Of a stretch of DNA of 64,000 nt, positions 4,875 to 16,666 are shown in pieces. The notes beneath the pieces are model-generated. The model did not search any database. It had not been told where the DNA came from and worked only from the letters and a program-made list of their open reading frames with translations. The translations under genes were made by a program, and so were the position numbers. Numbering within the stretch: the first letter of the stretch is position 1; the number at the start of each line of letters is the position of its first letter. Source of the stretch: Marivirga arenosa (GTDB lineage: Bacteria; Bacteroidota; Bacteroidia; Cytophagales; Cyclobacteriaceae); assembly GCF_030503895.2 (NCBI RefSeq), contig NZ_CP129970.2, positions 3,705,001-3,769,000 on the forward strand, read 5' to 3'.

Positions 4875-5465
4875 ATGAATGATTATAAAAATATCTTAGT
4901 CATTGAGGATGAATCATTAATCGCGCAGGATCTCTCCTATTTGCTACAAGATTTGGGCTATAATTGTATTGGCATTGCAAAGAATTATGAAAGAGCAATG
5001 CTATTATTCAATACTAATGATGTCCATCTGATTTTATGTGACATCAATATCGAAGGAGAAAAAGACGGTATTGAAACAGTATTAGAATTAAATAATATCA
5101 AAAAGACCCCTACCATATATCTTTCAGCCTATTCTGATCATAACTTAGTTAGCAGAACAGCAGATACGGAATCTTATGGATACTTGGTAAAGCCCTATAA
5201 TGAAAGAAGTTTAGATGTTGCCATTAATGTAGCTCTTCAAAAGTTTTATAAAGAAAATCATACTGAAGTAAATAAAGACTTCTTAAATAATTTTACGACT
5301 CGTGAAGTTGAAATCATCAAATTATTGGCGGCTGGTAAAACAAGTTCAGAAATAGCGAATATCTTATTTATAAGTACTCAAACGGTCTCAAAACACCGAA
5401 GTAATATCCTTAAAAAATCAGGCTGTAAAAGTTCTACTGAATTGATACATCAGTACTATCAATAA
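4875..5465 (+). CDS. Response regulator, receiver plus LuxR/NarL-type HTH
   Basis: The 196-residue protein is the likely partner of the preceding kinase. The receiver domain (1-125) shows acidic residues E11-D12-E13, phospho-acceptor Asp56 in LILCDINIEG, Ser84 and Lys106 in YLVKPYN. The C-terminal helix-turn-helix (about 138-196) has TTREVEIIKLLAAGKTSSEIA and VSKHRSNILKK, the LuxR/NarL signature. HisKA_2 kinases often pair with other receiver types, but the 3-base gap argues strongly for a cognate pair. Target genes cannot be read from the sequence. The next gene begins 73 bases on and may be co-transcribed. Confidence 0.92.
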   Translation: MNDYKNILVIEDESLIAQDLSYLLQDLGYNCIGIAKNYERAMLLFNTNDVHLILCDINIEGEKDGIETVLELNNIKKTPTIYLSAYSDHNLVSRTADTESYGYLVKPYNERSLDVAINVALQKFYKENHTEVNKDFLNNFTTREVEIIKLLAAGKTSSEIANILFISTQTVSKHRSNILKKSGCKSSTELIHQYYQ

Positions 5466-5538
5466 GAAAAACTAATTTTAGAAAAAATTATTTATTTCAA
5501 ATAATTGCTTAAATTAAGTTCTGAACAAACACAGTTTT

Positions 5539-5970
5539 ATGAGATTATTTACTCATCCCAAATTGAGAATTACAGTAGAGGAAATTAATAATATCCCGTA
5601 CATAAAAGAGGTTTGGAGAGGAGTTTTTAACCCAGAAGTTTTTCGAGATTTAATCGATACTTCCCTGTCTATTTATGCAGAAGAAATAAAGAAACATAAA
5701 GTAACTGGTCAATCTAAATTTTTACTTTTTGCAGATGTGACTGAATTAGAAATCATTAGAGCGGAGGAAATTAATTGGTTGGAAAGTGATATAAATCCAC
5801 AATATGAACAACTTGGTTTTACTCATCAAGCTGTAATAGCTCCAGCAACCAAAGTAGCCTCTAATAAAGTGGAAGAATATGAGTCAGATGACGATGAAGC
5901 TGCTTTTGTAACAAAAGTTTTTAAAAATCATAAAGAAGGATTAAAGTGGTTTATTCATTTAAATCAATAA
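5539..5970 (+). CDS. Unknown small cytosolic protein, possibly SpoIIAA/STAS-like
   Basis: The 143-residue protein has no signal peptide or membrane helix. It opens MRLFTHPKLRI and has the alternating strand and helix rhythm of SpoIIAA-like proteins found in Bacteroidota (for example FLLFADVTELEII in the middle), plus an acidic stretch EEYESDDDEAAF. I cannot assign a motif with certainty, so the STAS link is only a suggestion. It follows the response regulator on the same strand and ends 2 bases before the converging MuiA-family gene, with no terminator hairpin visible between them. Confidence 0.7.
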   Translation: MRLFTHPKLRITVEEINNIPYIKEVWRGVFNPEVFRDLIDTSLSIYAEEIKKHKVTGQSKFLLFADVTELEIIRAEEINWLESDINPQYEQLGFTHQAVIAPATKVASNKVEEYESDDDEAAFVTKVFKNHKEGLKWFIHLNQ

Positions 5971-5972
5971 TT

Positions 5973-7862
5973 TTATTCCAATATAACCTTCTCCCCTTTT
6001 GGGTATTTTACTTCATAAATAAATTTCTTGCTAACTGACTCATTACTATTTAGATTCAATTCCCATTTTAACTCTCCCGTTTTCTCAATATACTTCGCTT
6101 TAGATTTTTCCTCTAAGTTCACCTCTATCTGTTCTCTTAATGACACCGGTATTTGATCATATAAATTCAGTTTTATAGGCTGAGATTTAGTATTTCTTAA
6201 CTTTATTTCAAAGCCTACTTTCTTACTTTGATTAAGTCCTATAAAATTTCGGGTACTAAAATCATCAATTTTATCTCTCTCAATTACTATACCTTTATCA
6301 TTGCCTAATGATAATTGTAAAGTATCAATTGTAGCATTCGCATTTAATATAGTGGTTCCAACAAAAGCACCTTCAAAAAATAATTTAGCCTCTCCTTCCA
6401 TTAAATTATATTGGTCCCAATTAGAAATAGCGGCTACTAAATAAGCATTTTTATCAAGTTTTGGTATAGCTACATAATGATAATCTGCCTTTACCTCGTA
6501 TTCCTTCAAATCAATAAACATTTGAGGACTACCCGATTTTATAGTATATGCATCTTCAACCTCAAACTCAATATTGGTTTGTTTTTTAACAACTGTTGAG
6601 GTCATTTTTTCAGCACTATTTATATTCACTCCTGCTACTTTATCTTGCACTCTTTTTGATTTGGATAATCTTTCACCTCTTGAAGCATAACCGTAAGCTG
6701 TTACAACAACTTCTGATAATTCCTGAACATCTGTTTCTAATCCAACATTAATAATAGAAGAATTAATACCAACTGTTTTATTTTTCATACCGATATAACT
6801 GAAAACAAGTTGATTAGATCCTCTTGGAACGGTTACTGAATAGTTACCTTGTAAATCTGTAGTAGTTCCAATTGAAGTTCCTTGAACAATTACATTAACT
6901 CCAGGTAGAGGTTCTCCTGTTTCAGCATCTACTACACTACCTTTAACTGAATTGCGATTCACCCCTAAGTTAGAGATATCATTTTCTTTAAATTGAGTGA
7001 AACGAGCATAATCTAAATACCAAGTTTCCAATTCTGGTACATCTTTATTTTGATTCGGTTCAGCATTTGAAAATCGCAGTTTAACATTATTCCAATCTTC
7101 ACCAGTTTGCTGAAAAACTTCAGCCTGATATTCTAATGCAATCGGTTGAGTGATATCTTTTACATTTAATCTATACTTTGGATACCAGCCCGCCCCTTCT
7201 ACAAAATAGCTTACTTCAAAATTTGCATTGGTAGTTTTCAGAACCTCAACCTTTACTAAAATATTGCTTTTTGTTTCTTTTCCTAATCTTGCAATTCCTG
7301 ATAATTGATTATTTAGTCTTGATAATCTGTTTCTTAAATCACTTAATTCAATATTTACGGTAGATTGTTCTTCTTTGATTGAAGTTAACTCCTTTTCATA
7401 TAAACTTAGCATTTGTAATAGCTGAGTAGAAGATATATTCTCCGATCCTAAATTCTTATTTGCAGCTATTAAAGCTTCTTTTTGATTTAAGACATTAGAT
7501 CTATTTGACTTTATTCTTATGTCATCTTCAACTTTGTCAATCAAATTTTGTAATGAATCAACCTTCTTAGAATTTGTATTCTCTTCTAAATAGTCATATT
7601 GATGTTGAACTGAAATGATTTTTAAATCACCGGCAGCTTTTACATTAATACTATTGGGATCCATATTAGGAGAAAGTGATTTCATTACTAAATCATAATT
7701 CCCTTTTTGTAAATTGATTGATCCCGTTCTGAATAACTGAGCACCTTTTAAAAACACGGTGACTTGATCTGTTTTAGTCGTTAATGTTTTTTCCTGATAG
7801 TCTTTTTGGCCTAATACATTAATTGATAATCCTAATAATAAAATGGTGATCAGCTGCTTCAT
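5973..7862 (-). CDS. MuiA-family (DUF4139) envelope protein with inserted carboxypeptidase-like domain
   Basis: The 629-residue protein has a signal peptide (about 1-19, ending VLGQ) and is probably periplasmic or surface-exposed. Residues 25-90 fit the DUF4140 N-terminal domain, 95-190 form a coiled coil, and 200-290 plus about 410-625 fit DUF4139, the core of the mucoidy-inhibitor MuiA family. Between them, about 305-378 is a carboxypeptidase-regulatory-like domain (GSVVDAETGEPLPGVNVIVQG). It ends in LSEVVVTAYG (382-391), the sequence that usually opens a SusC/TonB-dependent receptor plug. No barrel follows. The function of the family is not established. The gene lies 30 bases downstream of ppk1 and may be co-transcribed with it. 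Confidence 0.85.
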   Translation of the reverse strand: MKQLITILLLGLSINVLGQKDYQEKTLTTKTDQVTVFLKGAQLFRTGSINLQKGNYDLVMKSLSPNMDPNSINVKAAGDLKIISVQHQYDYLEENTNSKKVDSLQNLIDKVEDDIRIKSNRSNVLNQKEALIAANKNLGSENISSTQLLQMLSLYEKELTSIKEEQSTVNIELSDLRNRLSRLNNQLSGIARLGKETKSNILVKVEVLKTTNANFEVSYFVEGAGWYPKYRLNVKDITQPIALEYQAEVFQQTGEDWNNVKLRFSNAEPNQNKDVPELETWYLDYARFTQFKENDISNLGVNRNSVKGSVVDAETGEPLPGVNVIVQGTSIGTTTDLQGNYSVTVPRGSNQLVFSYIGMKNKTVGINSSIINVGLETDVQELSEVVVTAYGYASRGERLSKSKRVQDKVAGVNINSAEKMTSTVVKKQTNIEFEVEDAYTIKSGSPQMFIDLKEYEVKADYHYVAIPKLDKNAYLVAAISNWDQYNLMEGEAKLFFEGAFVGTTILNANATIDTLQLSLGNDKGIVIERDKIDDFSTRNFIGLNQSKKVGFEIKLRNTKSQPIKLNLYDQIPVSLREQIEVNLEEKSKAKYIEKTGELKWELNLNSNESVSKKFIYEVKYPKGEKVILE

Positions 7863-7892
7863 ATAAATGTTTGGTTAAAACTTAAAACGTAA

Positions 7893-10010
7893 TTATTCGA
7901 ATAATCGTACATCCTCAATTGATTCAGGTGTAACATTAAAAAATTCTTCGTGAATATTAAATGAAGCTTCATCTCCAGCTTCTACTTCTTTATAAAAACT
8001 ATCCTCATTCATTTCATAAGCATTCACATTATCTTGTAAATTATATCTTAAGATATTCATGACTTGCTTTTTCAAGGTTTCATCTACTATGAGGAATAAT
8101 GACTCTAATCTCCTTTCAAATGATCGAACCATCATATCGGCACTTCCTCCATACACCTTAGGGTCACCATTATTATGGAAATAATAAATTCTTGAATGCT
8201 CCAAGTAATTACCTACTATAGAACGAACTGTAATATTCTCACTCAATCCTTTTCTACCTGGACGCAAACAACAGATCCCTCTAACAATTAATTTAATTCT
8301 AACTCCTGCTTGAGAAGCAGCATATAATTCCTCAATAGTCTCTTTATCTTCAAGTGAATTTATTTTAATACAAATACCGGATGGAAGCCCAGCCTTTGCA
8401 TTCTCTGCCTCCTGCTGAATTAGTCCGATTAAACGAGTTCTCATATCTTTAGGAGCCGTAATTAAACGCTCATATTCATGTGGAAGACTGTGCCCTGTAA
8501 TTACGTTAAAGAACTCTGATATATCCTGAGCATAAACTTCATCTGTACTCATTAAACCAATATCAGTATATAACCTTGCAGTATCCTCATTATAATTTCC
8601 ACTCGCCATGTGTAAATAACGCGTTACTTTTTCTTTCTCTTTCCTAACGATCATCAATAGCTTCGTATGAGTTTTATATCTGCTAATACCATAAATCACA
8701 AAACAGCCTGCTTTCTGAAGTCTTTTTGCTTCTCTTATATTATTTTCCTCATCAAAACGAGCTTTTACCTCAAATAAAACCGAAACATGAATACCATTTT
8801 CAGCTGCTTTTAATAAGGCATTTGTAATTCTTGAATCTTCGGCTAAACGGTATATGGTTAGCTTAATAGAAAGCACTTTTGGATCTTCAGCAGCTTTCTC
8901 TAGCATATCGATTACAGGTTCTATATTATTGTAAGGATGATGCAAGAGAATATCACGATCCTTCAAGATTTCAAAAATATTGTCTGAATCTGATTTATGT
9001 TCTGGAAATGCTAAAGGAGGAACTGGATCAGGTGTCGAAGGAATTTTATCCTTGAACTCGGTATGTTTTATAATTTGCCAAAGTGCGCTATAGTCAACTA
9101 AATCCCCTTTCTTAAACTTAAAAATATTGTCTTTGTCAATCTCCCATCTATCACAAAGAATTTTCATCATCCATTTGTCATAGTCTTTATCAATTTCGAT
9201 TCGCACTACCCTACCAGTTTTTCGGGTCTTGAGCTTTTTACGCATTTCCTCTAGAAAATTAGCCTCAATATCATCACTTTCCTCGAGTGTGAAATCACCA
9301 TTACGAGTAATTCTGAATAGGTTTACAGATAGAATTTCAATATTTCGGAATAGCTTATCAATATTAGCTTTAACTAATTCCTCTATAGGAATAAATAACA
9401 TTTTATCATCACGCTCAACTTCATAAAACCTTTGAATATTTTGAGGAATCTGAATAAATGAAAGCTTTTTATTATCCTTTTTTTCACCGAAAGTCCTGGT
9501 AACTACAGAAAAAATAAGAAGCTTATTCATCAAAATTGGAAAGGTATGATAATTATCATACACCATAGGTGTGAGCATTGGGAAGATGATCTTATCAAAA
9601 AATCCATTTGCCTTCTTCAACTCACTATCATTTAAATCAGTCAACTTTGCAATTTTAAAGTTGTTCTCCTCAAAAATAGGTTCGAGCTCATTTTCAAAAA
9701 GCTTATTTTGCTCTTTTACAAAATTCTGGCATTCCGTTAATAGTTTTTTCCTGAAAGGCAACTCTCTTAAGCCCGAATAGTCAACACGCTCTCTACCATA
9801 ATCTATATAATTATAGAGCGATCCCACTCTAATCATGAAGAACTCATCTAAATTTGAGGCAGTGATGGCTAAAAACTTCAAGCGTTCAAAAATTGTTCTA
9901 CTCGGTTTTCTTGCTAAATCTAGCACACGATAATTAAATCGTAACCAACTTAAATCTCTACTTACTAAGTTACTCTTATTAATTAATGAACTTATTCTAT
10001 CTATTGCCAT
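7893..10010 (-). CDS. ppk1: Polyphosphate kinase 1
   Basis: PPK1 reversibly polymerises the gamma-phosphate of ATP into inorganic polyphosphate. The 705 residues match the usual length. The N-terminal domain opens with RDLSWLRFNYRVLDLA. The two phospholipase-D-like catalytic domains follow: His448 in RYKTHTKLLMI corresponds to the autophosphorylated histidine, and His605 in YLEHSRIYYF to the second conserved one. Other family blocks include HHPYNN, IKLTIYRLA and GGSADMM. The start ATG at 10010 is clear. A 9-bp inverted repeat lies 65 bases upstream. Identification is firm. Confidence 0.96.
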   Translation of the reverse strand: MAIDRISSLINKSNLVSRDLSWLRFNYRVLDLARKPSRTIFERLKFLAITASNLDEFFMIRVGSLYNYIDYGRERVDYSGLRELPFRKKLLTECQNFVKEQNKLFENELEPIFEENNFKIAKLTDLNDSELKKANGFFDKIIFPMLTPMVYDNYHTFPILMNKLLIFSVVTRTFGEKKDNKKLSFIQIPQNIQRFYEVERDDKMLFIPIEELVKANIDKLFRNIEILSVNLFRITRNGDFTLEESDDIEANFLEEMRKKLKTRKTGRVVRIEIDKDYDKWMMKILCDRWEIDKDNIFKFKKGDLVDYSALWQIIKHTEFKDKIPSTPDPVPPLAFPEHKSDSDNIFEILKDRDILLHHPYNNIEPVIDMLEKAAEDPKVLSIKLTIYRLAEDSRITNALLKAAENGIHVSVLFEVKARFDEENNIREAKRLQKAGCFVIYGISRYKTHTKLLMIVRKEKEKVTRYLHMASGNYNEDTARLYTDIGLMSTDEVYAQDISEFFNVITGHSLPHEYERLITAPKDMRTRLIGLIQQEAENAKAGLPSGICIKINSLEDKETIEELYAASQAGVRIKLIVRGICCLRPGRKGLSENITVRSIVGNYLEHSRIYYFHNNGDPKVYGGSADMMVRSFERRLESLFLIVDETLKKQVMNILRYNLQDNVNAYEMNEDSFYKEVEAGDEASFNIHEEFFNVTPESIEDVRLFE

Positions 10011-10074
10011 GGAAAGTAATTCAAATTTTTATCTCAAAAAATTTCTTCTATGAAATAATTGAATGGTAAAATTA

Positions 10075-10096
10075 GCTTAAATAGGTTTATTTAAGC
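10075..10096. promoter_or_regulatory. 9-bp inverted repeat upstream of ppk1
   Basis: GCTTAAATA (10075-10083), a 4-base spacer, then TATTTAAGC (10088-10096) form a perfect inverted repeat. It lies 65 bases upstream of the ppk1 start codon, a reasonable place for a dimeric regulator site. No regulator is known for it, and AT-rich palindromes occur by chance. Confidence 0.35.
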
Positions 10097-10388
10097 AACA
10101 ATACAAATTAACAAAAAAGTGATCTATTCTAAGAATATTTTAGATTAATCTGCATTCATTTCTGATAATTGGCGGTAGTCGCTTTTATAAGGAGTGGGAA
10201 TAATTTTTATAAAACTAATTCAGTGTATAAGGATTTAATAATCCCCATATGGCATAATAACTTAGTTCCAGAACTAGCTGTATTAAAATAAGAATGCCTA
10301 ATAGTTTTATTTTTTAAACTCTATTTTTTATTGGGTTCCATATTATAAATATATCATATAAAGTAAAATTTTTAAACATTATATTTTG

Positions 10389-10409
10389 ATACATCATATT
10401 TTGATGTAT
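10389..10409. promoter_or_regulatory. Palindromic operator in front of padR (probable autoregulation site)
   Basis: ATACATCA (10389-10396) and TGATGTAT (10402-10409) form a perfect 8-bp inverted repeat with a 5-base spacer, ending 9 bases before the ATG of padR. PadR-family repressors bind palindromes with ATGT/ACAT half-sites in their own promoters, and TGATGTAT contains such a half-site. The decamer ATATTTTGAT also occurs twice in direct order here, 15 bases apart. Autorepression is inferred. Confidence 0.6.
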
Positions 10410-10418
10410 ATTTACTCT

Positions 10419-10766
10419 ATGTATTCAAAAGAACTATTAAAAGGCACACTTGGAGTTATAATATTAAAGCTCTTGGAAGAAAACGGAAAAATGTATGGTT
10501 ATGAAATTTGCCAGAAGGTAAAAGAGATATCGGATGGTAAAATCCTGATCAAAGACGGTAGTCTCTATCCTACTTTACATAAGCTTTTAAAAGATGGTAT
10601 TCTAACCACAGAAGAAGTGAATATTGGCAAAAGAGTAAGAAAATATTATACCTTAACTCATAAAGGAAAAGGAGAAAAAAAATTAGTTGTGAAGGAATTG
10701 GAAGATTTTATTGAAACCTTAAATAAAATAGTTTTTACAGATAACAAAACCTCTCCTGCACTATGA
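10419..10766 (+). CDS. PadR-family transcriptional regulator
   Basis: The 115-residue winged-helix protein begins MYSKELLKGTLG, the usual start of PadR proteins, so I chose the ATG at 10419 rather than the one at 10386, which would run through the palindrome. It shows the family blocks VIILKLLEENGKMYGYEI, SLYPTLHKLLKDG and RKYYTLTHKGK. Small PadR proteins of this type commonly sit in front of membrane-protein genes and repress the operon until an inducer binds. Its stop overlaps the next start by 4 bases (ATGA), so translation is probably coupled and the downstream membrane genes are its likely targets. Confidence 0.92.
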   Translation: MYSKELLKGTLGVIILKLLEENGKMYGYEICQKVKEISDGKILIKDGSLYPTLHKLLKDGILTTEEVNIGKRVRKYYTLTHKGKGEKKLVVKELEDFIETLNKIVFTDNKTSPAL

Positions 10767-11386
10767 TAACGGATGAACAACTCGCTTATATAGCTAATCA
10801 AATTAATGATAGCAATATTTCATCATTAGAGATGCGAGATGATCTAATTGATCATTTTTGTTGCCTGATAGAAATTGAAATGCAAAGAGGTCGTGACTTC
10901 GAAGATGCTTATCAGAAAGCGTATGAGCAAACCACTCCAAATGGTTTTGAAGAAATACAATATGAAACACTTTTTTTATTAAACCACAAAAAAATAATAC
11001 TCATGAAACAATTCACTTACATTTCAGGCTTTATTTTTAGTTTTTCATTTACAGTAGGCTTATTTTTTAAATTAATGCATTTTCCAGGAGCAAACATTAT
11101 GATGTTTTCGGGTTTATTGGGCGTATCCTTTATTTTCCTACCCTTATTATTGATCATTAAATTTAAAGATAAGGTTCTAACTTTAATTTCTGAGCGACTA
11201 AAATGGATTTTCGGTACTTTTAGCTTAATGCTGATCTTTTTAGGAAGCTTCTTTAAGCTATTACATTTACAAGGGGCTGGTGTGTTATTTGGCCTTGGAT
11301 TTTTAATCTTCGGTTTTCTTTTTCTACCCTTCTATTTTTTCAGAATGTATAAGTCTAGTCAAGAAGAATCTGTATCGCACTCATAA
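10763..11386 (+). CDS. Four-helix membrane protein with two GldL-like FFKLxHxxGA motifs
   Basis: The 207-residue protein has a soluble N-terminal part (1-80) rich in acidic residues and with MRDDLIDHFCCLIE. This resembles the short domain that often precedes membrane segments in PadR-linked proteins. Four hydrophobic segments then lie at about 85-101, 112-133, 148-163 and 174-193. The motifs FFKLMHFPGA (101-110) and FFKLLHLQGA (163-172) recall FKIMHWPGA in the gliding and T9SS motor protein GldL, but the protein lacks the rest of GldL. It is encoded directly behind padR with a 4-base overlap. The function is unknown. Confidence 0.8.
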   Translation: MITDEQLAYIANQINDSNISSLEMRDDLIDHFCCLIEIEMQRGRDFEDAYQKAYEQTTPNGFEEIQYETLFLLNHKKIILMKQFTYISGFIFSFSFTVGLFFKLMHFPGANIMMFSGLLGVSFIFLPLLLIIKFKDKVLTLISERLKWIFGTFSLMLIFLGSFFKLLHLQGAGVLFGLGFLIFGFLFLPFYFFRMYKSSQEESVSHS

Positions 11387-11395
11387 TTTAACTTC

Positions 11396-11767
11396 ATGAA
11401 AAAAATAATTTACACCTTAACGTATTTTGCCTGTTTCATCTTTCTTGCTGGAATTTTCTTCAAAATAATGAAGTTACCTTATACATATTATTTATTATTT
11501 GGAGGAGAGAGTTTAGCGGGCTTAATATGTTTTCCTATGATCTTTTTTATGAAATGGAAAGAGGGTGAATTAAATGACTTGAAAATTAGGTTTCAATGGA
11601 TTTCTGGTCTATTTGCCTTTATAGTTTTTATATTTTCTACCTGGATAAGATTTTACGATAACCAAATTGGAGATTTTAGTTTAGCTTTTTCGTTTTTCCT
11701 TTTATCCTTTACTTTTCTGCCTTTTTTCTTCTACAATATGTATCAGAAATCAATTAGAAAAATTTAA
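11396..11767 (+). CDS. Small four-helix membrane protein, relative of the preceding gene
   Basis: The 123-residue protein is almost entirely hydrophobic, with four likely helices. The motif FFKIMKLPYT (21-30) matches the FFKLMHFPGA motifs of its neighbour in position after the first helix. It therefore looks like a diverged relative without the soluble N-terminal part. It begins 9 bases after the upstream stop, on the same strand, so it should belong to the PadR operon. No enzymatic or transport motif is visible. Confidence 0.75.
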   Translation: MKKIIYTLTYFACFIFLAGIFFKIMKLPYTYYLLFGGESLAGLICFPMIFFMKWKEGELNDLKIRFQWISGLFAFIVFIFSTWIRFYDNQIGDFSLAFSFFLLSFTFLPFFFYNMYQKSIRKI

Positions 11768-11846
11768 ATATTATTCCCAAAAAAAAACATGCGATATGCC
11801 AGAGTGAATTAATTTTTACATAATTATTAATAACAATTAATTAATA

Positions 11847-11854
11847 TAAATTTG
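11847..11854 (+). promoter_or_regulatory. Bacteroidota -7 box upstream of the GTG-started outer-membrane gene
   Basis: TAAATTTG matches the TAnnTTTG consensus exactly and lies 34 bases before the GTG at 11889. I see no good -33 TTTG at the expected distance, so the call rests on the -7 box alone. Confidence 0.4.
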
Positions 11855-11888
11855 CTTTCGGTTCAAATAATTAATAACAAAATAAATT

Positions 11889-13079
11889 GTGAAAAGACAT
11901 ATAAAGCTTAGTTTACTATTCTTATTTATATCATTTGCCTCTGTCAAATATTCAAATGCTCAATCGAATTATATAGAGGGTTTTTATATCAATAATCAAG
12001 GTGACACAATAAATTCAAAAATTTACTATTCTTCCGGTCAAAGTGCATTTCGTAATTGCCAGGTTTTAGTGAATGAGAATAAATCAAAAACATTTACTCC
12101 AGAAGATATTCTGGGATATGGATATTTAAATGACGCATCATATTCCTCAAATATTATTGAAAGTTTTTTTCTTCGTGACGTAATTAATGGTAAGGTATCC
12201 TTATATGAAAAAGAAAATGAATACTTCATAAGTGTTGATGATAGCGTTTATCATATTAAAAATTCAGCAGAAATTGCAAATAGAAATGGTAAGAGATATG
12301 TTATAAACCAAAATGTATGGAAAGGAAAATTATATTATTTAACTAAAGATTATCCTAATTTAAAAAGACAAATTGATAAAATGTCTTTTAGAAAAAATGA
12401 CATTAAAGCATTTGTTATTCAATTAAATAAAATGAAAAATGAAAAATATATCGATTACGATATTAAACTTCAAACAGATAAAATTAAATGGGGAATTCGA
12501 ATAGGGCATCAATTTAACAGAATCAATAAAACTAGTTCTGTAAATTTTCCACATTTGAACGAAACTTACAAAAGCCAATCTCAGACATTTGCGCTAATAT
12601 TTGATTATAAAATTCCAGAATTCTCCAAATCTTTGAGTATAACTTCAGAAATTTCAATAAGTAAAATTAGCTTTTCTGGAAATAGAGACGACCAATCTAC
12701 TTTCCCTAGAACTTTATACATAAGTACATTTAATTATACTCAATTAAGTATACCTATTGCACTATCCTACAGATTTAATCAAGATAAGTTATTTGTAAAA
12801 ACTTATACCGGCTTTAATTCGCAGTTTACGATAAATGAAAGCTATCTTTTCGAAAGGATCACTATTTTTACGGATGAAAGATTTTCAACTACAGATCAAG
12901 CTTTTACACCTACATTATTTCAACCTGGCTTAATATTTGGGTTTTCTGTAGGATATGAATTCAAAAATTTTGAAGCTGGATTGGATAATCAATTGAGAAT
13001 ATCCACAAAATTAAATAAAGAAATAAATCTTTATATGGGTCAACAGTTTATAAACTCTGGACTTTATATAAAATTCTAA
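11889..13079 (+). CDS. Unknown exported protein with probable C-terminal beta-barrel
   Basis: The 396-residue protein starts with GTG and a signal peptide (KRHIKLSLLFLFISFASVKYSNAQ). Residues about 25-190 are a soluble region with short repeating strands. From about residue 200 the sequence alternates polar and aromatic residues (for example IKWGIRIGHQFN, YTQLSIPIALSYRF, FGFSVGYEF) and ends in LYIKF, as expected of a small outer-membrane barrel. This layout is common among uncharacterised outer-membrane proteins of Bacteroidota. Its own -7 box lies upstream, so it is probably separate from the PadR operon. Confidence 0.7.
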   Translation: MKRHIKLSLLFLFISFASVKYSNAQSNYIEGFYINNQGDTINSKIYYSSGQSAFRNCQVLVNENKSKTFTPEDILGYGYLNDASYSSNIIESFFLRDVINGKVSLYEKENEYFISVDDSVYHIKNSAEIANRNGKRYVINQNVWKGKLYYLTKDYPNLKRQIDKMSFRKNDIKAFVIQLNKMKNEKYIDYDIKLQTDKIKWGIRIGHQFNRINKTSSVNFPHLNETYKSQSQTFALIFDYKIPEFSKSLSITSEISISKISFSGNRDDQSTFPRTLYISTFNYTQLSIPIALSYRFNQDKLFVKTYTGFNSQFTINESYLFERITIFTDERFSTTDQAFTPTLFQPGLIFGFSVGYEFKNFEAGLDNQLRISTKLNKEINLYMGQQFINSGLYIKF

Positions 13080-13114
13080 AAATGAATATCATATTTAAAT
13101 CATTGCAGTAATCA

Positions 13115-13819
13115 CTATTCCATAATAAAAACCATACAATGCTGCCAGGGAAGGTTATCAATGTTTTCTTTCAATTTAAAACCGGCAGCATTCATTTCTT
13201 TTACAGCCTGCGCTTCACTCATTTTGTGTAATTCTTTAATAGGCACTGTTTTGTCTTCTGCCCGATATTCAATCAAATAAATTTCGCCCTGAGGTTTTAG
13301 CGCATCTTTTATAGAAGCTATCATTTCAATAGGATAACTAAATTCATGATATACATCTACCATAAGTACTTTATCTATTTTATTTTCAGGTAAATTGACA
13401 CTTCGCTCTGATCCTTTAACCAATTGAATATTTAAAACACCTAATTCCTCTTTTTTATCTTGAATAGCCTGAAGCATTTCTGCTTGAATATCTACAGCAT
13501 AAACCTCTTTTGCTTTTGGTGCCATTTTAAAAACATGATAGCCAGAACCTGCACCTATGTCGGCAATTACATCATCGCCCTGAATATTCATGTTTTTTAA
13601 AAGTCTATTGGTATTTTCTTCTTTTTCCCGTTCTGGTCTTTCCAACCAATTTATACCCTGATAACCCATTACATGAGCTATTTCTCTATCCATATACCAT
13701 TTCCCAGTTCCAAAGCGATCACCGGCTTTAAAGCTGTAAGCTTGATTATCATTGTCATTTTGTGAATGACAAGAAAAACTTAAGAAGAAAAATATTAACA
13801 ATAGCAATAACCTTCTCAT
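13115..13819 (-). CDS. Class I SAM-dependent methyltransferase with a lipoprotein signal
   Basis: I place the start at the ATG at 13819. The longer frame to 13906 would run through the terminator hairpin of the upstream gene. From 13819 the 234-residue protein begins MRRLLLLLIFFFLSFSC, with lipobox Cys17. The mature part has the family block DREIAHVMGYQGINWLERPE and then a Rossmann methyltransferase fold: motif I ADIGAGSGYHVF, acidic motif II VYAVDIQ, and VLMVDVYHEF. Similar exported or lipid-anchored methyltransferases occur in Bacteroidota and Planctomycetota. The substrate is unknown, and SAM supply outside the cytosol is unexplained. Confidence 0.82.
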   Translation of the reverse strand: MRRLLLLLIFFFLSFSCHSQNDNDNQAYSFKAGDRFGTGKWYMDREIAHVMGYQGINWLERPEREKEENTNRLLKNMNIQGDDVIADIGAGSGYHVFKMAPKAKEVYAVDIQAEMLQAIQDKKEELGVLNIQLVKGSERSVNLPENKIDKVLMVDVYHEFSYPIEMIASIKDALKPQGEIYLIEYRAEDKTVPIKELHKMSEAQAVKEMNAAGFKLKENIDNLPWQHCMVFIME

Positions 13820-13870
13820 AACTGAATATTTGTTTCTTAAAACTACGCAGTGAGCAAATAGTTTGCATAA

Positions 13871-13898
13871 AAAAAGGGTTGCTTTCACAACCCTTTCA
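13871..13898 (-). terminator. Terminator after the E2 gene (minus strand)
   Basis: AAAGGGTTG (13873-13881) and CAACCCTTT (13888-13896) form a 9-bp stem with a 6-base loop. On the minus strand the stem is followed by a T-run, so it ends transcription of the dehydrogenase E2 gene that stops at 13923. Confidence 0.85.
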
Positions 13899-13922
13899 TC
13901 TATCAAATAACCAAATAATCAA

Positions 13923-15260
13923 TTATAGATCTTTTTTAACATCCCATTTTTCGAGGTAATCAGCTACTCTTCTCACTACCATTCCTCCTAATGAACCGTC
14001 TACTACTCTATGGTCATATGAGTGAGATAAGAACATCTTATGTCTAATTGCGATTACATCTCCCTGAGGGGTTTCTAATACAGAAGGCTTTTTAACAATA
14101 GCTCCTAAAGCTAGAATACCTACTTGAGGTTGCATAATAATTGGAGTACCCATTACATTACCAAATGATCCAACATTAGAAATAGTAAAAGTACCTCCTT
14201 CTAATTCCTCAGCTTTTAATTTATTATCTCTAGCTCTCTTAGCTAAGTCATTTACTTTATTGGCTAACCCGCGTATGTTCAATTGGTCAGCATCTTTTAT
14301 AACAGGCACGATTAAATTACCACTTGGTAAAGCAACTGCCATTCCTATATTAATGTGTTTCTTCTTGATGATTCTATCACCGTCAACTTGCACATTAATC
14401 ATTGGATAATCTTTTATTGCTTTTACAACCGCCTCAATAAAAATTGGTGTAAAGGTTAGATTTCCATTTTCCTGTTCCTTGAAAGTATTTTTATGTTTAT
14501 TTCTCCACTGAACTACGCTGGTCATATCAGCCTCAACGAAAGAAGTAACATGTGGAGAAATTCTTTTAGAATCCACCATTCTTCCTGCAATCATCTTACG
14601 CATTCTATCCATTTCGATGATCTCATCATCTGCAGAAATGCTAACTGGAACACCCTGTGGTGCTGGTTGTGCGGCAGCTGGTTGAGATGCTGGAGCAGAC
14701 TGCTGAACAGATTGAGCTGGCTGACTTTGAGCAGGAGCTTCTCCTCTATTATCTAAATAGGATAAAATATCTTTTTTAGTTACTCGTCCATCTTTACCAG
14801 TACCAGAAATAGACTCTAATTCAGCCATTCCAATATTTTCTTCTTTAGCGATGTTTCTAACTAAAGGAGAATAAAATCTTCCTGAATCTGAACGAGCTGC
14901 AATATCATGACCATTATTTCCTGAATAAGAGCTTTCCGTTGAAGCAGCAGGTGCAGCTGAGGCTTCTTGTTTTTCAGGCTTAGAAGTTGATCCATTATCT
15001 GATGATGCTGAGGTTCCTCCTTCAGTTTCAATTATTGCTATAGGTTTTCCTACAGCTACAATATCACCTTCCTGAACTAAAATTTCTTTCAAAACTCCAG
15101 CCTCAAGAGCGGGTACCTCAGTATCTACTTTATCAGTAGCTACTTCTAATACAGATTCATCTTCTTCAATAGTGTCACCTTCCTTTTTTAACCAGGTAAG
15201 CACTGTTGCTTCCATAATACTTTCACCCATTTTGGGCATTACCATTTCTACAGTTGCCAT
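13923..15260 (-). CDS. 2-oxoacid dehydrogenase E2 component (dihydrolipoamide acyltransferase)
   Basis: E2 carries acyl groups on lipoyl-lysine and transfers them to CoA in the pyruvate, 2-oxoglutarate or branched-chain complexes. The 445 residues show one lipoyl domain (1-80, Lys44 in ATDKVDTEVP), an Ala/Pro/Gln linker and an E3/E1-binding domain (about 130-170, PLVRNIAKEENI). A second Pro/Gln/Ala linker follows, then the catalytic domain with YDHRVVDG (His417). The single lipoyl domain and linker type leave the substrate open between 2-oxoglutarate and branched-chain acids. I do not give a symbol. No E1 or E3 gene is adjacent, and a terminator follows. Confidence 0.9.
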   Translation of the reverse strand: MATVEMVMPKMGESIMEATVLTWLKKEGDTIEEDESVLEVATDKVDTEVPALEAGVLKEILVQEGDIVAVGKPIAIIETEGGTSASSDNGSTSKPEKQEASAAPAASTESSYSGNNGHDIAARSDSGRFYSPLVRNIAKEENIGMAELESISGTGKDGRVTKKDILSYLDNRGEAPAQSQPAQSVQQSAPASQPAAAQPAPQGVPVSISADDEIIEMDRMRKMIAGRMVDSKRISPHVTSFVEADMTSVVQWRNKHKNTFKEQENGNLTFTPIFIEAVVKAIKDYPMINVQVDGDRIIKKKHINIGMAVALPSGNLIVPVIKDADQLNIRGLANKVNDLAKRARDNKLKAEELEGGTFTISNVGSFGNVMGTPIIMQPQVGILALGAIVKKPSVLETPQGDVIAIRHKMFLSHSYDHRVVDGSLGGMVVRRVADYLEKWDVKKDL

Positions 15261-15415
15261 GAAATAATTAGTCGTTTATTGAAATGAAAAACTCTTATAA
15301 AAAAATATATTTTAATTAAAAGGACTATTTCCTTCTATTATAAGCTAGAAACGTTTTAAATGTTTCAAACCAAATCAAATTTGTACAAAATTAACATTTA
15401 TAAACTTTTTCTCAA

Positions 15416-16666
15416 TTAATTTGAGCTTAAAGTTTGCCGAACCAAATTTAATAATGAATTAGTTGTGATTTCAATATTACCATGTCTATCAAATTGAAAA
15501 TGATATAATTTAGTTTGGGTTTTAGTACCATCAGCCAAAGCTACCCACACTGTACCCACTCGTTTGTCCTTAGTTCCTCCTCCAGGACCTGCCACACCAC
15601 TGGTTGAAACTCCAATATCAGCATTGAATAATTCACGAACTCGTTCCGCCATTTCAATTACCGTTTGCTCACTAACCGCTCCGTATTTTTCAATAGTTTC
15701 TTTTCTAACTCCTAATACATTGATCTTTAAATCATTATGATAAGGATTTATACCTCCTCTATAATATTCTGAACTTCCAGCATTTGAAGTAATTAAATGA
15801 GCTAAATAACCACCTGTACAGCTTTCAGCACATGCGATAGTTTTGTTTTGCTTTAACAATAAATCCCCTATTTTTTGAGCTAAATTGCCTTCATCGGTTC
15901 CATAAATATACTTTCCTACTAATTTATAAAGCTTGTCTACCTCTTGATCAATTAAGGCATTCAAATGCTTTTCATCTTTCCCAGAAGCTGTTAACCTTAA
16001 CTTCACCTGTTTTAAACCTGGAAGATAGGCTAACTTGATTTCCTTTGATAATCCATTTTCCCAATCTTCAAGTTTTTCAGCCAAAATGCTTTCCGGAACT
16101 CCTACGGTATGAATCATCTTATGAATTAAAACAGGAGTATCAAAAATCTCTTTGAACTTTGGAAGAATGGAATCCTGCATCATTTGTTGCATTTCTCTTG
16201 GAACACCTGGCATAGAGATAAATATTTTGTTATCCTTTTCAAACCACATACCTGGAGCGGTTCCAAATTTATTTTCAACAGGCTTACATTTTTCTGGTAA
16301 TTCAGCTTGTCCTTTATTCAAATCATTTAACTCTCTTCCACGCTTTGCATAACGTTCCTTTAAATCTTCCAATATATCTTCATGAAGCTTCATCCCAGAA
16401 TCAAAATATTCTGCTAAAAGTGGCTTGGTTAAATCATCTTTCGTTGGGCCAAGGCCTCCGGTAATCAAGATAATATCAGCGTTTTTCTCAGCTTCACGAA
16501 AAGCATTCATAATGCTATCGCGAGAATCTGAAACTGTAACCTTACGAGAAACTCGGATTCCAATCTTATCTAATTCTCCACAGATAAAATGAGAATTCGT
16601 ATCTAAAGTCTGACCGTATAAAATCTCATCTCCTATTGAAATTAGTTCGGCATAAATATTTTTCAT
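15416..16666 (-). CDS. cinA: CinA-family nicotinamide-nucleotide amidase
   Basis: The 416-residue protein has the two-domain CinA layout. The N-terminal molybdopterin-binding-like (COG1058) domain has AELISIGDEILYGQTLDTNS and ITGGLGPTKDDLT. The C-terminal PncC-type domain carries ACAESCTGGYLAHLITSNAGSS, with the conserved serine and the phosphate-binding segment, and TSGVAGPGGGTKDKRVGTVW. Such proteins hydrolyse nicotinamide mononucleotide in NAD recycling, and the N-terminal domain can act on ADP-ribose. It begins 12 bases downstream of the subtilase stop, on the same strand. Confidence 0.95.
   Translation of the reverse strand: MKNIYAELISIGDEILYGQTLDTNSHFICGELDKIGIRVSRKVTVSDSRDSIMNAFREAEKNADIILITGGLGPTKDDLTKPLLAEYFDSGMKLHEDILEDLKERYAKRGRELNDLNKGQAELPEKCKPVENKFGTAPGMWFEKDNKIFISMPGVPREMQQMMQDSILPKFKEIFDTPVLIHKMIHTVGVPESILAEKLEDWENGLSKEIKLAYLPGLKQVKLRLTASGKDEKHLNALIDQEVDKLYKLVGKYIYGTDEGNLAQKIGDLLLKQNKTIACAESCTGGYLAHLITSNAGSSEYYRGGINPYHNDLKINVLGVRKETIEKYGAVSEQTVIEMAERVRELFNADIGVSTSGVAGPGGGTKDKRVGTVWVALADGTKTQTKLYHFQFDRHGNIEITTNSLLNLVRQTLSSN

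Follow-up and report, generated by a model that had tools for sequence, protein, structure and literature searches.

The 64,000 nucleotides of Marivirga arenosa DNA analysed here (the window) contain a padR gene followed by two small membrane protein genes whose FFK motifs recall GldL, the proton-driven motor protein of type IX secretion (T9SS) and gliding. The question raised by this locus is whether the two genes encode a further motor of this kind, or whether the motor's membrane hairpin has been put to a different use beside a PadR regulator. The three genes form one tight operon, in which padR and gene 2 overlap by 4 nt (ATGA) and 9 nt separate gene 2 from gene 3. The features to which we refer are the following, with nucleotide positions given for the window:

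10384-10388, forward strand: TTTTG, candidate -33 box by sequence; its TTTG is kept in 8 aligned Marivirga upstreams
10389-10409, forward strand: ATACATCATATTTTGATGTAT, predicted PadR operator ATACAT-N9-ATGTAT (12/12 bases), at -30 relative to padR
10407-10414, forward strand: TATATTTA, candidate -7 box, TAnnTTTG-like with the last base differing; ends 5 nt before the ATG
10419-10766, forward strand: padR, short PadR winged-helix regulator, 115 aa (PF03551, 72.2 bits, above the cut-off of 27)
10763-11386, forward strand: gene 2, 207 aa, an N-terminal head followed by two hairpins of GldL_N type (Pfam, hhalign, AlphaFold2)
10763-10999, forward strand: head of gene 2, residues 1-79, three helices, presumably cytosolic (AlphaFold2)
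Gene 2 residues 30-37, forward strand: head motif DH-x-CC-x-x-E (conservation in 41 proteins)
11006-11170, forward strand: hairpin 1 of gene 2, residues 82-136 (hhalign against GldL, 97.1%; superposition on 7sax_G)
11063-11092, forward strand: FFKLMHFPGA, gene 2 residues 101-110, in hairpin 1
11186-11377, forward strand: hairpin 2 of gene 2, residues 142-205 (hhalign against GldL, 96.7%)
11249-11278, forward strand: FFKLLHLQGA, gene 2 residues 163-172, in hairpin 2
11396-11767, forward strand: gene 3, 123 aa, copy of the gene 2 hairpins without the head (hhalign against gene 2)
11456-11485, forward strand: FFKIMKLPYT, gene 3 residues 21-30, in its hairpin 1

Operon surroundings and gene 3

A polyphosphate kinase gene (7893-10010, reverse strand; Pfam) diverges from padR across a gap of 408 nt, and by eye the same neighbour is present in three other loci (L011, L012 and L014). 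Downstream, a forward-strand gene at 11889-13079 encodes a protein of 396 aa with a signal-peptide-like start and no Pfam match at E ≤ 10; in L008 and L010, by eye, a relative of this gene precedes the operon. A comparison with PHROGs gave no match. At the corresponding locus of Marivirga sericea (L037) the identity to gene 2 is 75%.

All three FFK motifs lie behind padR where the original prediction had placed them. Their supposed equivalence holds for the two motifs of gene 2, but the motif of gene 3 is degenerate and the second hairpin of gene 3 is without one. Using hhalign, hairpin 1 of gene 3 pairs best with hairpin 1 of gene 2 (98.1%) and hairpin 2 with hairpin 2 (98.5%), and because the hairpins match in order we regard gene 3 as a copy of both hairpins together, without the head. 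In comparison with GldL, gene 3 hairpin 1 reaches 66.1% and the equally hydrophobic hairpin 2 reaches 0.3%, and gene 3 has no match to Pfam GldL_N. The turn Lys is present in three of seven gene 3 orthologues and the turn His in none (0/7). In the 59 near relatives searched, gene 3 is present in 8/9 genomes of Marivirga, and 0/50 of the others have it as a gene of its own. The trio is therefore not a conserved unit; the gene order that had been expected to be conserved is so for the padR-gene 2 pair (41/41 loci), but gene 3 is confined to Marivirga among these 59 genomes.

Kinship of the hairpins to GldL and absence of the proton site

The two hairpins of gene 2 are copies of each other (99.3%, hhalign) and, as judged from sequence profiles, which carry the case for kinship to GldL, are of the GldL_N type. 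Gene 2 scores 30.6 bits with Pfam GldL_N (PF22827; cut-off 24), a score to which the two hairpins contribute jointly, since taken singly they give 22.2 and 18.9 bits, each below the cut-off. At E ≤ 1 this model matches 18/19 members of the family alignment. None of 14 control genomes has a match at E ≤ 0.01, and the six that do at E ≤ 10 have none above the cut-off. The NCBIfam GldL equivalog TIGR03513 gives gene 2 16 bits, below its cut-off of 68.3, and matches 15/19 family members at E ≤ 0.1 (best 1.3e-7). When the gene 2 family was used for a PDB-wide profile search, the top three matches were GldL chains (E 0.0013-0.0032). The GldL-like character read from the motif is thus upheld by Pfam, by hhalign at 97% and by the PDB profile search.

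The AlphaFold2 model of gene 2, built from 19 sequences (mean pLDDT 88.1, pTM 0.59), has helices at residues 4-15, 22-41, 46-57, 63-105, 110-135, 142-166 and 172-205, the long helix 63-105 joining the head to TM1. The modelled hairpin 83-133 superposes on GldL 7sax_G with an rmsd of 1.3 Å over 50 residues (Z 7.2), and also on the GldLM structures 7sat and 7sau; Foldseek gives a probability of 0.87 for the match to GldL at an E-value of 4.2 (4.2-7.3 over all GldL matches). The structure prediction called for originally therefore produced a close fit, but not a discriminating one: the same structure list holds the unrelated AhlB pore at Z 7.4-7.6 and a designed protein at Z 8.5. With equal scores reached by chains that have no relation to GldL, the model is consistent with the GldL fold but does not prove kinship. 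Lys-rich stretches precede TM1 and lie between TM2 and TM3, with the FFK turns on the opposite side, and on this reading of the sequence we place the head in the cytosol and, provisionally, the hairpins in the inner membrane.

Hairpins of this type are not restricted to headed proteins. In the 59 relatives, GldL_N matches at E ≤ 0.01 comprise strong GldL (at least 87 bits), 14 headed ORFs and 11 ORFs without a head, a split made by manual sorting in which one of the 11 (in G025) may be a decayed headed copy. The hairpin thus recurs as a module among these Bacteroidota, in headed and headless ORFs as well as in GldL, and the concern that the motif might be a general one is borne out in part by the 11 headless, non-GldL ORFs. 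The decayed-looking copy (L107:2524-2733) is a 70-aa frame that retains a single GldL-like hairpin; stops interrupt the similarity to gene 2, and no padR lies within its 6-kb stretch. Headless two-hairpin proteins at L093:1163-1489, L094:1088-1609, L099:1105-1611, L100:1083-1589 and L102:957-1502 match GldL at 97.8% by profile, and no padR was found near them in the fetched stretches; headless two-hairpin proteins with no padR in the fetched stretch also occur in G204, G219 and G405. GldL_N-like stretches also occur together with PF00144 serine hydrolases in two other arrangements: L095:1326-3056 is a fusion of HTH, TM and hydrolase parts, the TM part being DUF4870 according to Pfam, whereas in L098:2-1425 the hydrolase gene adjoins one for a hairpin protein of 67 aa.

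For GldL, E49 in TM2 is described as strictly conserved and needed for secretion, and E59 as needed only for gliding (PMC8986121). Among the GldL proteins of the relatives (n=29, from 30 fetched loci with L046, at a contig end, left out), the E49 position is Glu in 29/29, E59 is kept in 25/29, and the turn Lys and His in 29/29 and 27/29. We compared these with 41 headed two-hairpin proteins, namely 19 from our first alignment (A1) and 22 new ones, the window protein included; they come from fewer than 41 genomes, three of which supply two each. Outside this set are a locus with no head frame (L026), three headless proteins without padR (L164-L166) and a shortened protein (L167), which has padR directly upstream and an operator of 11/12 bases. 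No acidic residue occurs at the E49 or E59 equivalents of either hairpin in any of the 41, the E49 position of hairpin 1 being a gap in 2/41. The turn Lys is kept in hairpin 1 in 30/41 (with a further six Arg) and in hairpin 2 (K165) in 40/41, and the turn His in 31/41 and, as H168, 38/41. The proteins were chosen by similarity to gene 2, so that the conservation of Lys and His is partly built in, but the absence of Glu is not. Acidic residues are found 8-9 positions past the Lys, at the start of TM2, in 3 + 9 alignment cells for hairpin 1 and in three for hairpin 2, and at offset 13 from the Lys in one case among the 41 proteins.

With Lys and His mostly conserved and Glu absent, the turn motif has been kept and the known proton site is absent. 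We consequently reject the motor reading, based on the absence of both glutamates in 41/41. By eye, no GldM-like gene was recognised by the operon among the ORFs of 6500-16500 and no T9SS gene around it, and a T9SS-linked operon was dropped as a candidate on the latter ground. The genome has its own GldL elsewhere (G000:C1:1811476). The notion of a working motor did not survive these comparisons.

The PadR partner, its predicted operator and the head

A padR gene is present in the same operon for all 41 headed two-hairpin proteins, and directly upstream for 40; in L024 a PIG-L gene stands between padR and the headed gene. Matches to gene 2 at 1e-5 occur in 26/59 near relatives, weak partial matches included. 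A profile search of 241 genomes of the order gave matches in 36, with the full head and two hairpins in 26 genomes of eight families (rows sorted by reading); these counts are lower bounds, as the 12 best first-look candidates were scored per genome. A head search in a sample of the phylum was positive for 14/148 genomes, and the head is therefore not general in the phylum. Two enzyme types recur as same-strand neighbours. In 7/40 loci a serine hydrolase (PF00144) whose start resembles a signal peptide follows at 55-194 nt (L019, L020, L143, L159 and L160 by Pfam, L144 and L145 by eye); in 4/40 there is a PIG-L deacetylase (L021, L033 and L024 by Pfam, L155 by eye). Both enzymes may act on the envelope. 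They are absent in 29/40 loci, many of which have unrelated same-strand neighbours or none in view.

The repeat upstream of padR reaches 11-12/12 bases in 17/19 first-set and 15/22 further loci (32/41 in total), mostly at -30 or between -39 and -50, and is weak or missing (7-10/12) in 9/41. For the first set, at most 1.5% of resampled upstreams reach such scores. TTTTG and TATATTT(A/G) fit what we take to be the -33 and -7 boxes of Bacteroidota; a transcript read from these candidate boxes would start at or near the padR ATG. Because the repeat sits between the two boxes, we propose autorepression. No use was made of a sigma-70 scan of the interval 10000-12000, which gave 9 sites where shuffled sequence gave 13.2, or of one terminator-like site inside gene 2 (0.8 in shuffles).

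The genome has only one other perfect copy of the operator. It falls within the predicted frame of a CAAX-protease-like gene, close to where that gene starts (PF02517; L136:1501-1521, G000:C1:868713-868733), and is either a chance occurrence or another PadR target. A headed CAAX-protease-like gene behind padR in L029 recalls this gene type. With up to one mismatch the genome has 19 sites, against 11 for a reversed-pattern control, so that most weaker copies are likely due to chance. We also considered 12 padR genes beside proteins with the Pfam HAAS domain (PF22564): an operator of at least 11/12 bases was present at 0/11 with long proteins and at one with a short protein (L132, 12/12). The one long protein that was domain-scanned (L124) consists of PspC, LiaI-LiaF-TM, Toastrack and HAAS. 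At L132:1121-2028 (G145), padR precedes a 192-aa borderline HAAS protein, which scores 26.2 bits as a whole protein (cut-off 27) and 28.5 in another search. This locus is possibly a bridge between true HAAS systems and the family with the DH-x-CC-x-x-E head; because of it, the operator does not separate our operons cleanly from HAAS systems.

Among the 41 heads, D30 and F46 are constant in 41, H31 and C34 in 40, E37 in 38 and C33 in 37. Modelled alone, the head again forms helices 4-15, 22-41 and 46-57 (mean pLDDT 75.6), and its profile gives 0.1% against GldL (hhalign). No family model matches the head of the window protein. We rejected its assignment to Pfam HAAS, since 0/22 heads match PF22564 at E ≤ 1 and the head profile reaches 3.8% with HAAS in hhalign. 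The nearest model, a weak one, is NF038403, "permease prefix domain 1", which matches 17/22 heads at E ≤ 1 (best 4.1e-5) and 4/19 full-length members at E ≤ 0.1; profile comparison gives 73% with 22 heads, 25% with 12 core heads and 0.6% with a reversed control. This assignment was also set aside, as the window protein has no match to NF038403 (cut-off 30 bits) at E ≤ 10, and the model has none in the genome at E ≤ 0.001. Instead of the GxP groove on the kinked third helix of HAAS, the head shows a P-x-G run at residues 59-61. The best hit of a fold search with the head alone was 2apl (Z 7.0, rmsd 2.6 over 64), within the noise range for helical models, and DUF1048/HAAS structures are absent from that list, which excludes nothing; a PDB sequence search with the heads gave a phosphatase at E 0.093 as its best match and none that was convincing. 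With no HAAS match and a leaning to permease prefix domain 1, we call the head HAAS-like in arrangement alone.

Related heads are found behind padR on FtsX/MacB permeases (L032 and L104; Pfam), on the CAAX-protease-like protein of L029 (Pfam) and on longer multi-TM proteins (L025, L027 and L028). One head family sitting behind padR on differing membrane modules points to the head as a common adaptor. In a mirror-tree analysis, the partial correlation of PadR with the head was 0.50 (41 loci) and 0.41 (28 thinned loci), and with the TM part 0.35 and 0.26, the bootstrap 5-95% range of the difference spanning zero in both sets. Larger arrays were also observed. In G028, a single padR is followed by 11 same-strand genes with diverged heads and TM parts of their own (L108:377-10255), an array of about 10 kb with one gap of other sequence at 5003-6774, and L109 has padR with five headed genes. 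Elsewhere in the Marivirga genome, outside the window, another padR is accompanied by two headed membrane genes (L103:1320-3000, G000:C1 ~3285.8-3287.5 kb), whose TM parts are by eye without a GldL-like FFK motif.

Comparison with known systems, proposed function and alternatives

Gene 2 shares with GldL/PorL a TM hairpin with an F-K-x-x-H-x-P-G-A turn, but differs from them in its tandem hairpins, N-terminal head and padR operon as well as in the absence of E49 and E59. HAAS is described as an N-terminal helical domain of multi-TM proteins, fused to 4TM and 2TM domains and FtsX-like permeases, that is always coupled to a stand-alone PadR-like regulator, and PadR-HAAS has been proposed as an alternative to two-component systems (PMC11237479, mSystems 2024). 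Gene 2 resembles this dyad in its three consecutive head helices, its coupled PadR wHTH gene and its multi-TM part. The suggestion of an unnamed system therefore needs qualification: in kind, the operon resembles the published PadR-HAAS dyad, but its head is not recognised by Pfam HAAS. The FtsX/MacB carriers of NF038403 likewise have padR upstream, with operators of 11-12/12 bases in L112-L116, but they are permeases, whereas the window carrier is a two-hairpin protein.

Two Gram-positive operons also have a PadR gene followed by a membrane protein gene. BC4206-BC4207 of B. cereus encodes PadR and a 4-TM protein and is induced by a membrane-active bacteriocin, overexpression of BC4207 being protective (PMC2774856); LltR of Listeria represses its own operon with a DUF1700 membrane gene (lltR-lmo0600), which is about 100- to 150-fold derepressed in an lltR mutant (PMC6624303). 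The likeness drawn here is one of description, and no GldL-type hairpin is mentioned in the available portions of these papers. Among the open-access papers searched, none of those listed links GldL with PadR, the one that names both being unrelated; none deals with GldL and PF22827 or with the "permease prefix domain", and we saw no listed title that bears on an operator or operon of this type in Bacteroidota.

The operon looks like a sensor or protector of membrane condition and not a motor, and we consider it probable that it is an autoregulated membrane-stress operon using a GldL-type hairpin that lacks E49. PadR would bind the predicted ATACAT-N9-ATGTAT between the -33 and -7 boxes and repress its own operon, while gene 2 would serve as sensor and effector, with two inner-membrane hairpins bearing a small cytosolic head. 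Disturbance of the membrane would move the hairpins, and the head would act on PadR, turning the operon on; our confidence that the head acts on PadR directly is somewhat short of even. The additional membrane protein so produced, joined by gene 3 in Marivirga, might then steady or remodel the envelope, sometimes helped outside Marivirga by a serine hydrolase or PIG-L deacetylase. Support comes from the padR linkage, the conserved repeat, the shared head and the published PadR parallels, and we also count in its favour the three-helix head that is continuous with TM1 in the model and the envelope-enzyme neighbours (7/40 PF00144, 4/40 PIG-L). Against it we count the head's lack of a family match, the weak operator in 9/41 loci, the 29/40 loci without the enzymes, and an excess of PadR-head over PadR-TM correlation that spans zero.

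PadR proteins often bind drugs or phenolics directly. The regulator might thus itself sense a small molecule, with genes 2 and 3 protecting the cell or pumping and the head serving for assembly or stability, an explanation that would suit the non-significant co-variation of head and PadR and the protection conferred by BC4207 overexpression alone (PMC2774856). We think this unlikely, though worth keeping in mind, since the recurrence of the head family beside padR on unrelated membrane modules is hard to explain without a tie to PadR. A different objection is that FFK is generic to short hydrophobic hairpins and says nothing of GldL. The 11 headless GldL_N ORFs and a structure match that unrelated hairpins equal, with Foldseek E-values of 4.2-7.3, would allow for this, but gene 2 exceeds the Pfam cut-off, control genomes give 0/14 at E ≤ 0.01, GldL chains lead the PDB-wide profile search, and gene 3 hairpin 2 reaches 0.3% with GldL where both gene 2 hairpins reach 97%; we judge the objection improbable.

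More improbable still is a small proton-driven motor or channel, in which gene 2, with or without gene 3, would form a GldL-like ring using the proton gradient. Sequence kinship to GldL_N, superposition on 7sax, 7sat and 7sau, the retained K165 (40/41) and H168 (38/41), and some acidic residues at the TM2 start (12 cells in hairpin 1, three in hairpin 2) are in keeping with such a device. Set against these are the E49 and E59 equivalents, never acidic in 41 proteins compared with 29/29 and 25/29 for GldL, and the operon, in which no GldM-like gene was seen by inspection.

Returning to the membrane-stress operon, its wider significance lies in where the hairpin occurs. A membrane element known from a proton-driven motor is also present apart from that motor, lacking the proton site, as part of a padR operon that occurs in eight families of one order in the 241-genome sample. 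A doubtful extension is that, in Bacteroidota, the GldL hairpin serves as a mobile module for sensing the membrane, independent of the motor; in its E49-less form it would read tension, thickness or potential and drive PadR via the new DH-x-CC-x-x-E head family. If so, sensing or anchoring would fall to the Lys/His turn, and the gain of E49 would be the decisive step to a proton motor. The natural E49-less relatives offer a way to ask what the Lys/His turn does in GldL, and the predicted operator may provide a handle for finding the inducer of a little-studied envelope response.
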